NCBI GenBank assembly: GCA_965371225.1
Contig: CBDUXP010000115.1
Span: forward strand, 1 to 5,683
Length of the DNA stretch: 5,683 nt
Direction of reading: 5' to 3'
Source: CBDUXP01 sp965371225 [NCBI: uncultured bacterium]
Lineage (GTDB): Bacteria; Abyssobacteria; SURF-5; CBDUXP01
This document shows positions 1,335-5,186 of this stretch, piece after piece (within the stretch, counting starts at the first letter, position 1; each line of letters starts with the position of its first letter). The notes under the pieces are model-generated. The model had not been told where the DNA came from and did no database searches. It worked only from the letters and a program-made list of their open reading frames with translations. The translations under genes were made by a program, and so were the position numbers.

Positions 1335-1363
1335 TTGACCGCCAAATAGTTGTGTGATACAAT
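1335..1363 (+). promoter_or_regulatory. Promoter of the marR-arsM operon (sigma70 type, near-leaderless)
   Basis: TTGACC (1335-1340) and TACAAT (1358-1363) are separated by exactly 17 bp and each matches the consensus at 5 of 6 bases. The expected transcription start is near 1370, only about 3 nt before the ATG at 1373. The mRNA therefore seems to have no room for a ribosome binding site. Confidence 0.78.
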
Positions 1364-1372: not shown

Positions 1373-1933
1373 ATGCAAGAAACTGGACCAAGCGTGGAAG
1401 GCCGCAAGGACGCACGCAAAGAAGCCGGCGCCCCCGACCAAGCCGACCGCCTGCGGCGCATCGTGCTGGGGGTCACCCGCCTGTTGAATCAGGTGGACCG
1501 CTTTGAGAGCGCCTGTTGCGGGGTGACCGTGGGCCAGTGCCTGACGCTCACGACCCTGCGGGAGCAGGGCGAGATGCCGAGTCAGCGGTTGGCCCAGACC
1601 CTAGGACTCGCGCCGAGTACGGTGACGCGCGCGGTGGCGCCCCTCACCGAGCGCGGCTGGATTCACCGCCGGCGGGACGAAACGGACCGGCGCCAGGTCT
1701 GGCTGGGACTCACGGAGGAGGGCGCGGTGCTGGCCGCGCGGTTGGCCGAGCGCGCCAGTGCCACATACGGACTGATCCTCGATCACCTGCCGGCCGCGGA
1801 CCGGGAGCCGACTCTGGCGGCGTTGGAATGCTTATTGGATGCGTGTCGCGGGGCACAGGCCATCTGCTGTCCGCCGGACGCACCCGGCCAACCGGAAGCG
1901 CTCGGCGCTGCCATGGAGACGACCCATGTCTGA
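1373..1933 (+). CDS. Cysteine-rich MarR-family regulator of the arsM operon
   Basis: A 186-residue winged-helix protein of the MarR family, a little longer than usual because of charged N-terminal and Pro/Ala-rich C-terminal tails. The helix-turn-helix covers about residues 69-90 (S70-Q-R-L-A-Q-T-L-G-L-A-P-S-T-V-T-R86), followed by the wing with the MarR signature D102-E-T-D-R-R107. Seven cysteines stand out: C48-C49 and C56 in the N-terminal helical region, and C153, C158 and C165-C166 near the C-terminus. In MarR dimers both ends form the dimer interface, so these could combine into a thiol site for As(III) or an oxidant. ATG 1373 is the first start in this frame, since an in-frame TGA lies at 1355-1357, and no good Shine-Dalgarno start follows, so a leaderless mRNA is likely. 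It overlaps arsM by 8 nt. It is probably an autorepressor; the family call is firm and the arsenic-sensing role is inferred. Confidence 0.85.
   Translation: MQETGPSVEGRKDARKEAGAPDQADRLRRIVLGVTRLLNQVDRFESACCGVTVGQCLTLTTLREQGEMPSQRLAQTLGLAPSTVTRAVAPLTERGWIHRRRDETDRRQVWLGLTEEGAVLAARLAERASATYGLILDHLPAADREPTLAALECLLDACRGAQAICCPPDAPGQPEALGAAMETTHV
1915..1918 (+). promoter_or_regulatory. Ribosome binding site that fixes the arsM start
   Basis: GGAG inside the last codons of the marR-like gene lies 7 nt before the ATG at 1926. It supports this start over the in-frame ATG upstream at 1839, which lies well inside the regulator gene and would add 29 residues unlike any ArsM N-terminus. Confidence 0.6.
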
Positions 1934-2852
1934 GACGACGAATATGCAAGACCTCACGCCGGACGACGTACGCAAGACCGTGTCGGGGCACTACGCCGGC
2001 GCGGTACAGGCGGCGACCGCACCCAAGAGTTGCTGTGGGAGCGCGCCAGTGGATCTGGCGAATCTCGACCTGGCCGACTCGGCCACGCACGTGCAGGTGT
2101 TGGAGCAGTTCGATCAGGAAAAGTGGGTGACGGCGAGCGGGTATGCCGCGGAAGAGTTGGCGGACTTGCCGCCGGACGCTGTCCGCGCGTCGTTCGGTTG
2201 CGGCGATCCCGTGAACCTGGCGCGTATCGCCCCGGGGGAGACCGTGGTGGACCTGGGAAGCGGCGCGGGCATCGACGTGATTCTCGCCGCGAAGAAGGTC
2301 GGGCCCAGCGGGCGGGTCATCGGCATCGATATGACCGACGAGATGATCGCGAAGGCCGAAGCCAACATCGCGGAAGCCGGGCTGACGAATACGGAGATTC
2401 GGCGGGGCATCATCGAGGACCTCCCGGTGGAGAACGCTACGGTCGATTGGGTGATCTCCAATTGCGTCATTAATCTTTCACCGGAGAAGCCGCGGGTGTT
2501 TGCCGAGATGGCGCGGGTGCTCAAGCCGGGCGGGCAGTTTCTGGTCTCCGACATCGTGGTCGGCGCCCTGCCGCAGGCCATTCGGGAGAACGTGCTCGGC
2601 TACGTGAGCTGCGTCGGCGGCGCGGTCGCGGAGGAAGAGTATCTCGGCATCATTCGCGACGCCGGGTTCCGCGATGTCCAGGTGGTCGCGAGCCACGCGT
2701 ACACCGCCCCGGAACTCTTGGGCTTCGCCGGCCTCTCTGGCGAATCGTCGGAGGAGGCGCTAGACACTCTGGGGGACGGGGCCCGGCAGATTCTCGAACA
2801 GTTGGCCGGCAAGATCGTGTCGATCAAGGTGCACGGCCGCAAAACGTCCTAG
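1926..2852 (+). CDS. arsM: Arsenite S-adenosylmethionine methyltransferase ArsM
   Basis: A 308-residue class I SAM methyltransferase of the ArsM/AS3MT type, which adds methyl groups to As(III) in the cytoplasm to give methylated, partly volatile arsenicals. An N-terminal Y23-x12-C36-C37 segment is followed by F90-G-C92-G-D-P, SAM motif I V107-V-D-L-G-S-G-A-G115, the acidic residue D135 in I-G-I-D-M-T, then I177-S-N-C180-V-I-N-L-S-P-E-K and S228-C229-V-G-G-A. C92, C180 and C229 correspond to the three arsenic-coordinating cysteines of characterised ArsM enzymes; the C36-C37 pair is also typical of bacterial members. After residue 255 comes the smaller C-terminal region. It starts inside the end of the regulator gene (8-nt overlap), so the two are translationally coupled. 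Nothing in it looks broken. The main uncertainty is physiological: it could prefer methylated arsenic intermediates. Confidence 0.93.
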   Translation: MSETTNMQDLTPDDVRKTVSGHYAGAVQAATAPKSCCGSAPVDLANLDLADSATHVQVLEQFDQEKWVTASGYAAEELADLPPDAVRASFGCGDPVNLARIAPGETVVDLGSGAGIDVILAAKKVGPSGRVIGIDMTDEMIAKAEANIAEAGLTNTEIRRGIIEDLPVENATVDWVISNCVINLSPEKPRVFAEMARVLKPGGQFLVSDIVVGALPQAIRENVLGYVSCVGGAVAEEEYLGIIRDAGFRDVQVVASHAYTAPELLGFAGLSGESSEEALDTLGDGARQILEQLAGKIVSIKVHGRKTS

Positions 2853-2888
2853 CCGCGCCACCCCGCGCGTGGGACGGGGAGGTGCCCC

Positions 2889-3788
2889 ATGCCTGAGGAT
2901 CGCTCACCCGAGGAAGTGCGCAACCGCATCGCGTCGCGGTACACCGCAGCCGCCAGCGCCGCGTCCGTGCCCGACCCCACCGCGCAAGCGGGGCCACGGG
3001 ACCTGGCGGCGCTGGATCTCAAAGGCGAGGGGGGCCGGGCCCTGTTCGTAGAGGACGCCCCGCCGGGGGCGCTTGCCCAGGCGGCGGGCTATGCGGACGA
3101 GGACGTGGCGACCGTGCCCGAGGGGGCGTTCCGCGGATCCTTCGCGTGTGCGACGCCAGTGAGCCTTGCGGATATTCAGCCCGGGCAGACGGTCCTCGAC
3201 CTGGGCTGTGGCCAGGGGTTGGACGTCATTCTCGCCGCGCGCCTCGTCGGCCCCACCGGGCGCTGCATCGGCGTGGACCTGACCCAGGCGCAGTTGGACC
3301 GCGCGCAAGCCCACATCGCGGAAACCGGGCTCGCGAACACGGACCTGCGCCAAGGACCCATGGAGGCGCTCCCGGTGGAGAGTGCGTCGGTGGACTGGAT
3401 CATCTCGAACGGGGCGATCAATTACTCCCCGGAAAAACCCAAGGTGTTCGCCGAAGCTTTCCGCGTGCTGAAGCCGGGGGGCCAGCTCCTCGGGGCCGAC
3501 GTGCTCGTCGAGGACCTGGATCCCGCCCTGGGGAACCGGTTGTTTGGGTACGTGCAGAACGCGGGCGGGGCGACGGGCGAAGCGGCGTACCTCGCACTCA
3601 TCCACGCGGCAGGGTTCAAGGACGTTGACGTCGTCGCGCGCACCGAGTTCACGGCCGGTCAGATTTTGCAATTCCTCGGGTACGACGCCGAGCCCACGGA
3701 CGAAGCCGCCGCCGCCGACCCGGAGCTGGTGAGCCTCCTCGCCGGCAAGCTCGCCGCCACCGCCATCCACGCCCGAAAGCCCGCGTAG
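2889..3788 (+). CDS. Tandem ArsM paralogue lacking most arsenic-binding cysteines
   Basis: A 299-residue SAM methyltransferase clearly duplicated from the arsM gene upstream. Over the SAM domain (residues 99-207) I count about 68 identical positions out of 109 against ArsM, with no gap. SAM features are intact: V102-L-D-L-G-C-G-Q-G110, D130 in I-G-V-D-L-T, and L194-K-P-G-G-Q. Only C87 (F85-A-C87) of the three arsenic ligands remains. ArsM C180 is G175 (S-N-G-A-I-N-Y-S-P-E-K) and C229 is N224 (Y-V-Q-N-A-G-G); the N-terminal Cys-Cys is also gone. Its other cysteines, C107 and C126, lie in SAM-fold positions. Three-coordinate arsenic binding as in ArsM therefore looks lost, while methyl-donor binding looks kept. 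The start has GGAGG (2878-2882) 6 nt upstream and lies 36 nt after arsM, so it is co-transcribed. It may be a heterodimer partner, an enzyme for another substrate, or a drifting duplicate; the intact frame argues against decay. Confidence 0.85.
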   Translation: MPEDRSPEEVRNRIASRYTAAASAASVPDPTAQAGPRDLAALDLKGEGGRALFVEDAPPGALAQAAGYADEDVATVPEGAFRGSFACATPVSLADIQPGQTVLDLGCGQGLDVILAARLVGPTGRCIGVDLTQAQLDRAQAHIAETGLANTDLRQGPMEALPVESASVDWIISNGAINYSPEKPKVFAEAFRVLKPGGQLLGADVLVEDLDPALGNRLFGYVQNAGGATGEAAYLALIHAAGFKDVDVVARTEFTAGQILQFLGYDAEPTDEAAAADPELVSLLAGKLAATAIHARKPA

Positions 3789-3825: not shown

Positions 3826-3853
3826 GACTCCGGCGCAACCCTAGGCCGGAGTC
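3826..3853 (+). terminator. Strong hairpin after the arsM operon, terminator-like without a U-run
   Basis: GACTCCGGC (3826-3834) and GCCGGAGTC (3845-3853) form a perfect 9-bp stem around a 10-nt loop, 37 nt after the second methyltransferase. No T-tract follows, so it is not a classic intrinsic terminator; it could stop transcription with a factor or protect the 3' end. A competing inverted repeat, CTAGGG (3821-3826) with CCCTAG (3839-3844), overlaps it. Confidence 0.45.
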
Positions 3854-4085: not shown

Positions 4086-5186
4086 ATGCGCACATTTCAT
4101 TGGGGAGTGAAATCCGTTGCGCTGGCTTGTATAGCAGCGATTGCCGTTCTGCTGGTGACGCGCCCAGCCACAGCCATCAAACCAGAGGATCCGGGGGGCG
4201 GCAACGCCCTTGAGGAGCGCGTCGTTGACTTAGAGGCCAATGTCGCCGCGTTGCAGGCCCAAGTGGAGGCGCTTGAGACGCTGCTCGCGTCGGTAAGTCT
4301 CGGGACACACAACGGCCAACCCGTGCTGCGGTTTAGCGGCATTAACGTGCAAATTGTTGATGGCACCAGCACCACACCTAGCAGCACAGGTCTGGGCAAT
4401 CTCATCGTCGGGTATGACGAACCTTGGGGCGGAAACATCTCTTTCCCACCCAGCGTGAAAACCGGTTCCCACAACCTGGTCGTGGGTTCCCAGCATAGCT
4501 ATACGAACTATGGCGGCGCGGTGTTTGGCCACCGCAACGTCATAAGCGGAATATTTGCGACCGTAACCGGCGGAACTCAGAATGTCTCAAGTGAATCCAC
4601 CACGAGCGTGAGCGGCGGGCAAGATAATATCGCCAGTGGCCATGTGGCGAGTGTCAGCGGTGGCTGGGCGAATGAGGCGGGACCGGGACACCAGTCCAGC
4701 GTCAGCGGCGGCTCCCACAACATTGCCAGCGGCTGGCGAGCCAGCGTGACCGGCGGCCAATTCAACGAGGCGAGCGGCGATTGGTCCCACATCTCTGGCG
4801 GTGGCGGTTTGGGACTGCTAAGTGAGGAGATTGGCAACACCGCTGGGGGTGAACACACGAGCATTCTCGGCGGCGTCGCCAACTTCGCCGGCGGCGGGTC
4901 TACATGCATCAGCGGCGGAGGTCACAACGAGACGGGTGACTTCTATACCAGCGTGAACGGAGGCAATGAGAATCTTGCTAGTGCTCGCTATTCGACAGTC
5001 CTCGGTGGCAACTGCAATACCGCCGGTGGCCAGGATTCTACCGTCGGCGGCGGAAATGAGAATCAGGCGATTGCACAGCGTTCTTCGGTGAGCGGTGGGA
5101 AACTCAACCAAGCGAATCATCTGAGTTCGACCGTGAGCGGTGGGCTAGGCAACACCACAGCCGCCAACTTCGATCACGTGCCCTAA
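4086..5186 (+). CDS. Exported coiled-coil protein with YadA-head-like 15-residue repeats
   Basis: A 366-residue protein with a clear Sec signal peptide: K9, a hydrophobic core (V11-V24) and a likely cut after A28-T-A30. A coiled coil follows, with L/V at positions 42, 46, 49, 53, 56, 60, 63, 67 and 70, a perfect a/d heptad pattern. Next comes a conserved linker (N87-V-Q-I-V-D-G; G104-N-L-I-V-G-Y; T126-G-S-H-N-L-V-V-G), then about 13 repeats from residue 158 to the end. These are mostly exactly 15 residues with consensus (S/T)-V-S-G-G-x-x-N-x-A-S-G-x-x-(S/T/A); one has a 9-residue insertion (residues 235-258). This resembles the left-handed beta-roll of YadA-type trimeric adhesin heads, but there is no C-terminal membrane anchor. 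GGGAG lies 7 nt before the ATG. It is probably a trimeric secreted or surface fibre; its target is unknown. It contains two cysteines (C274, C310) in the repeat zone. Confidence 0.82.
   Translation: MRTFHWGVKSVALACIAAIAVLLVTRPATAIKPEDPGGGNALEERVVDLEANVAALQAQVEALETLLASVSLGTHNGQPVLRFSGINVQIVDGTSTTPSSTGLGNLIVGYDEPWGGNISFPPSVKTGSHNLVVGSQHSYTNYGGAVFGHRNVISGIFATVTGGTQNVSSESTTSVSGGQDNIASGHVASVSGGWANEAGPGHQSSVSGGSHNIASGWRASVTGGQFNEASGDWSHISGGGGLGLLSEEIGNTAGGEHTSILGGVANFAGGGSTCISGGGHNETGDFYTSVNGGNENLASARYSTVLGGNCNTAGGQDSTVGGGNENQAIAQRSSVSGGKLNQANHLSSTVSGGLGNTTAANFDHVP
4557..5183 (+). repeat. Coding tandem repeats of 45 nt (15 residues), about 13 copies
   Basis: The repeat units begin at residues 158, 174, 189, 205, 220, 235, 259, 274, 289, 304, 319, 334 and 349. 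Lengths are 16, 15, 16, 15, 15, 24 and then 15 residues onward. Gly-Gly at repeat positions 4-5 and Asn at position 8 are the most constant. A degenerate copy precedes them (residues 143-157, F-G-H-R-N-V-I-S-G). The DNA copies have diverged considerably, so the array is old and not freshly amplified. Confidence 0.85.

Follow-up and report, generated by a model that had tools for sequence, protein, structure and literature searches.

A tandem ArsM paralogue with derived loss of arsenic-binding cysteines and a possible change of acceptor

The gene at 2889..3788 on the + strand of the window (the whole stretch of 5,683 nucleotides that was analysed) encodes an ArsM-derived protein of 299 aa, here called P2, which is a genuine, well-resolved paralogue that has lost arsenic ligands secondarily and is known from one copy. 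Sequence comparison shows P2 to have arisen by tandem duplication within the ArsM lineage of the window; it has changed fast while its neighbour, P1, stayed canonical. The reading that we prefer, with a probability of about one half, is that P2 is an ArsM-derived SAM methyltransferase that has lost canonical As(III) binding and has probably changed its acceptor, a change of role that is plausible but unproven.

P1 is a canonical arsenite methyltransferase of 308 aa, encoded by arsM at 1926..2852 (+ strand). Aligned by BLASTP, P1 and P2 are identical at 138 of 301 positions (E 1e-92), with four gaps, all near the C-terminus, and this full-length identity, together with the grouping of both proteins in the tree, bears out the description of P2 as a tandem ArsM paralogue in the earlier note. 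By hand, about 68 of 109 residues had been counted as identical across the SAM domain, free of gaps, close to the computed value of 70 of 109 in the ungapped alignment of P1 98-206. The cysteines of P1 are CC36-37, C92, C180 and C229, a numbering that is exact with the arsM start at 1926. At these positions, P2 has C87 for C92, G175 for C180 and N224 for C229, with no cysteine at 36-37, so that the alignment agrees with the replacements read previously: Gly, Asn, no N-terminal Cys-Cys and the C92 equivalent kept. The remaining cysteines of P2 are C107, located in the SAM loop LGCGQG, and C126. Moreover, C92, C180 and C229 align with C72, C174 and C224 of CmArsM (PDB 4fr0), and of the three As-binding cysteines expected of an ArsM only the C72 equivalent is kept in P2.

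According to the accessible part of a review (PMC6950371), all three cysteines of CmArsM are needed for the conversion of As(III) to MMAs, and C174 and C224 for that of MMAs to DMAs; thus, canonical arsenite methylation by P2, which lacks the equivalents of C174 and C224, is unlikely. Having kept only one of the three As(III)-binding thiols and no N-terminal Cys pair, P2 would most likely no longer methylate free As(III) by the thiol mechanism of ArsM. It might instead be an arsenic enzyme with another ligand set, acting for example on thiol-bound or methylated arsenicals via C87 only, which we hold to be improbable and place third among the four readings considered. The retention of C87 and the location of P2 behind arsM speak for it, as do TtArsM from Thermus thermophilus, which methylates As(III) with one Cys as described in the available text of PMC8649762, and a Bacillus ArsM, which needs two according to the same part of PMC6950371. 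Compared by that description, TtArsM is similar to P2 in being ArsM-like with a single conserved catalytic Cys; however, it is described as distant from other ArsMs, is an active arsenite methyltransferase, and two His ligands are proposed to substitute for its cysteines, whereas no histidine is seen near G175 or N224 when the sequence of P2 is read. The pair formed by C174 and C224 in CmArsM being lost in P2 also counts against a residual arsenic activity.

In the case of a methyltransferase with a changed acceptor, the retained SAM-binding loop would still support SAM binding and catalysis, and the acceptor site would have been remodelled by C180G, V181A, L184Y, C229N, G91A and G93A. The new acceptor could be another small molecule met during arsenic stress, and the arsenic chemistry itself would be left to P1. 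Regarding the SAM domain, a class I methyltransferase domain is found in P2 (PF13847, 9.2e-27), and SAM motif I is intact in 8 of 8 conserved columns, as is the frame, the 299-aa ORF being open over its whole length; the earlier note had claimed both. NF008823 (ArsM/PRK11873) is the best-scoring NCBIfam family of P2 too, and P2 shares with it the predicted fold, SAM motif I, a similar length and its branching beside P1, but lacks CC, C180 and C229 and fails the curated cut-off of 263 bits with a score of 190.5, whereas P1 passes with 275.4.

The predicted model of P2 (mean pLDDT 73.3, pTM 0.75) is closest to ArsM structures, with 5evj_A at Z 25.2 (rmsd 2.2, 215 aligned) and 4fr0 at Z 24.8 (rmsd 2.4, 215 aligned), and, outside ArsM and AS3MT, it resembles 3bus_B most (Z 19.9, rmsd 4.6, 214 aligned). 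The model of P1 matches 4fr0 with Z 25.2 (rmsd 2.2, 215 aligned). The alignments used for folding were made without L002, which is partly masked; in the tree it is represented by L042, its copy from the whole genome. P2 is predicted by this modelling to fold as ArsM, a likeness that is no proof of function, and as the loop of N224 is modelled at a pLDDT below 50, a new pocket is unreadable from the model.

The losses of P2 were located on 52 columns, each conserved in at least 90% of 27 canonical relatives, which were chosen for their three cysteines, so that the Cys columns are in the set by construction. P1 keeps 52 of 52 and P2 keeps 39, the 13 losses being C36Q, G91A, G93A, M136L, M140Q, I163M, C180G, V181A, L184Y, S208A, V211L, C229N and S299A. 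Of the 14 columns that lie no more than four residues from a Cys site, 7 are lost, compared to 6 of 38 elsewhere (Fisher p=0.026, ranging from 0.024 to 0.062 over six settings of threshold and distance). When the Cys columns are excluded, 4 of 10 columns are lost near the sites and 6 of 38 elsewhere (p=0.18, not significant), and consequently it is mainly the cysteines that support a focused loss. The idea of a loss focused on substrate ligands therefore survives for the cysteines, as a mild tendency, and a strong focus on the arsenic pocket was dropped beyond them. In a leave-one-out count, P2 loses 12 of 50 columns, the canonical relatives 0-9 and the proteins with Gly at the C180 position (the Gly180 group) 7-13; the two highest canonical losers, L047 and L048, both have very long branches.

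The tree contains P1, P2 and 34 relatives. Four sequences (L044, L049, L053 and L054) were dropped beforehand as fragments or fused ORFs, having Cys wherever the site was covered, and L051, a distant methyltransferase (34% over 113 aa) without any of the three cysteines, was dropped before the residue table. P1 and P2 are grouped at 97/100 (SH-aLRT/UFBoot), in keeping with common descent with canonical ArsM. When P1 was constrained to its nearest other ArsMs without P2, the AU test rejected the constraint (p=0.025) and the SH test did not (0.059). In addition, P1 and P2 have in common a DLA(N/A)LDL stretch, with 31-33 aa between CC and AGY; elsewhere this interval is 0-16 aa in 32 of the 34 relatives, 26 aa in L057 and 35 aa, of unrelated sequence, in L045. 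The cysteines are kept in P1 and in the nearest ArsMs, which places the ligand loss on the P2 branch, as had been supposed.

This branch is 4.7 times longer than that of P1 (0.74 against 0.16). In relative-rate tests with the six nearest outgroups, 52-59 changes are unique to P2 and 12-21 to P1 (p 2.9e-4 to 2.4e-8), and the excess is weaker with distant outgroups (p=0.024 with L036, 0.022 with L033 and 0.12 with L060). For the pair P1:P2, the NG86 method gives dN 0.51, dS 1.12 and a dN/dS of about 0.46, where dS approaches saturation and both branches are averaged in the pairwise ratio; together with a third-position GC of 86%, this fits a frame under net constraint. A relaxed or decaying duplicate, with a frame still open but a gene on its way out, is to our mind the least probable of the four readings. 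It would account for the long branch, the 13 of 52 conserved columns lost and the failure to find the pair elsewhere, but P2 has taken about 0.74 substitutions per site without stop or frameshift and is preceded by a good Shine-Dalgarno-like site, and its intact SAM loop with a complete motif I, its third-position GC and the dN/dS all argue against simple decay. With one P2 gene alone, relaxed constraint and selection for a new role cannot be told apart.

Regarding the residues of the relatives, Cys is present at both C92 and C180 in 27 of 34, and the C229 position is Cys or an in-frame TGA in all 34, another residue occurring only in P2. The combination Cys-Gly-Asn at C92, C180 and C229 is found in none of the 34. 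Gly at C180 is present in seven of them, on a separate branch, namely L043, L046, L059 (Chelatococcus) and four haloarchaeal proteins; Gly at C180 is thus not unique to P2, which weakens the earlier interpretation. In each of the seven, C92 is replaced by Val or Thr and the C229 position holds Cys or TGA. L043 and L046 are of the ArsM/AhpD type with an in-frame TGA at C229, and selenoproteins of this kind have been published according to the accessible part of PMC13188914. The ArsM/AhpD and related selenoproteins (NF041537, NF041536, NF047649) and the haloarchaeal L058 and L071-L073 have Gly180 as in P2; in contrast, the other two sites are reversed in P2. A placement of P2 within this group was rejected by its residues, as C92 is kept and C229 is Asn, and by the tree, as a constraint placing P2 with the Gly180 proteins fails both tests (AU p=0.025, SH 0.042).

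Methyltransferases resembling ArsM, with Gly at C180 and Val at C92, are encoded on the haloarchaeal plasmids L058, L071, L072 and L073. In the four stretches read, their genes lie next to those for OsmC or carboxymuconolactone decarboxylase, and the annotation goes no further than methyltransferase domain protein. Among the matches listed, at least seven further plasmid records contain full-length matches to the L058 protein, at 63.5-80%. A Paraclostridium plasmid (L066, 2902-3660) has a gene annotated as arsM whose C229 position is an in-frame TGA, which would be consistent with a selenocysteine arsenic ligand.

With marR and arsM, P2 seems to form an operon, as its third gene, and is probably co-transcribed behind the two others. 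The MarR-family regulator gene, marR (1373..1933, + strand; Pfam MarR PF01047, 3.2e-15), overlaps the arsM start by 8 nt, and arsM is spaced 36 nt from P2, with a Shine-Dalgarno-like GGAGGT at 2878..2883 (+ strand), 5 nt before the P2 ATG. One promoter-like site is present upstream of marR, a candidate sigma-70-type operon promoter at 1335..1363 (+ strand; TTGACC-17-TACAAT, with TG before the second hexamer), which is a consensus match only, one site being found compared to a mean of 0.5 in shuffles. Following P2, a 9-bp perfect inverted repeat without a T run (GACTCCGGC/GCCGGAGTC; 3826..3853, + strand) may possibly mark the operon end, and no terminator-like site was found in the site scan. 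A Cys pair is present near either end of the MarR protein (CCGVTVGQC and ICC), which may sense arsenic, and P2 may be under arsenic control. MarR relatives with Cys pairs near both ends also directly precede arsM in L009 (5242-5829) and L062 (Paenibacillus bovis, 2316-2768), and with that of the window they are candidate non-ArsR arsenic sensors.

The operon-like layout holds both possible partners for a further reading, where P2 would be a pseudo-enzyme or regulatory subunit that binds SAM or SAH without catalysis and pairs with ArsM or the MarR repressor, tuning their stability, activity or DNA binding. We regard this as unlikely, although it comes second in order, after the changed acceptor. 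It is counted against by the fact that, to our knowledge, dimers are not established for the ArsM family. In favour of it, inactive paralogues activate eukaryotic methyltransferases (DNMT3L, METTL14 and T. brucei PRMT1-PRO) in the available part of PMC10908127, and TtArsM binds its own repressor, TtSmtB, in that of PMC8649762. However, DNMT3L and METTL14 are reported in the same portion of PMC10908127 not to bind SAM or SAH, whereas SAM motif I of P2 is complete. Considering P2 as an operon-borne gene, it can tentatively be suggested that the loss of ligands led either to a methyltransferase with a different acceptor, as we prefer, or to a SAM-sensing subunit controlling ArsM, either of which may form a second arm of an arsenic-responsive methylation, hidden from arsM surveys that filter on cysteines.

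Other P2-like proteins and gene pairs were searched for in genomes, plasmids, phages and viral contigs. The genome contig scan depended on six 8-residue patterns of P2, one of which had to be matched exactly; diverged orthologues can escape such a scan, and absence from the genome contigs is consequently weak evidence. It gave 87 pattern stretches and 13 relatives, 11 of them of the ArsM type, the two others (L012 and L013) being remote methyltransferases. All 11 ArsM-type loci score higher to P1 than to P2, and none has a second ArsM-like ORF; the contigs of L005 and L009 end just after arsM, and hence the downstream neighbour is visible in at most 9 of the 11. In 13 whole genomes, NF008823 gave 22 matches at E<=1e-20, none with the combination of P2. 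The plasmid search with P2 gave 69 records, all less than 60% identical (34-49% among the 60 listed), and that with a Gly180 query gave 66, of which the best 40 were listed. Among the 15 plasmid stretches read across both searches, no P2-like protein was found, and second ORFs at E<=1e-8 were limited to a fragment of 125 aa (L059) and a remote methyltransferase (L072), neither having the residues of P2. The phage search gave two records only, 30% identical, with no P2-like protein, and the viral contigs also had none, their matches being four canonical loci. These four, L067-L070, lie on IMG/VR contigs classed as viral and carry ArsM genes with all three cysteines.

A lack of conservation of the gene pair had been named in the earlier note as refuting its interpretation, and no second arsM-P2 pair was seen in the 11 ArsM-type genome loci (at most 9 with a visible downstream) or in the 15 plasmid stretches, which, as far as these loci reach, counts against that interpretation. 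The question of whether ArsM homologues with Gly at C180 and Asn at C229 always sit beside a full ArsM found no case to apply to, as no homologue with this combination was found among the 34 relatives, the genomes and the plasmids.

Duplicated genes of this general kind are frequent. That the ArsM fold exists without the full arsenic ligand set is indicated by P2 and, independently of it, by the Gly180 group, and, if P2 does have a new acceptor, the P1/P2 pair would be a compact natural experiment on substrate change in an arsenic enzyme. As described in the accessible part of a large arsM survey (PMC5552862), only sequences with at least three of four conserved Cys were retained; thus, ArsM descendants without the cysteines were dropped before inspection. 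No description of a tandem ArsM paralogue without cysteines was found in the open-licence literature, whose partial coverage does not prove absence.

Besides the operon, the opposite strand of the window carries mraZ, a STAS gene and the start of rsmH, which looks like the head of a division cluster; the STAS-domain gene (2-728, - strand) is located between mraZ (583-1029) and the rsmH start. Compared with 10 of the 13 genomes behind the loci, MraZ reaches 44% at best, with a protein on a contig of a Chloroflexus bin that, to the eye, looks foreign to this bin. Downstream of P2, the window encodes at 4086-5186 a putative exported protein with repeats of the SVSGGxxNxASG type, which matches an ice-binding beta roll below threshold only.
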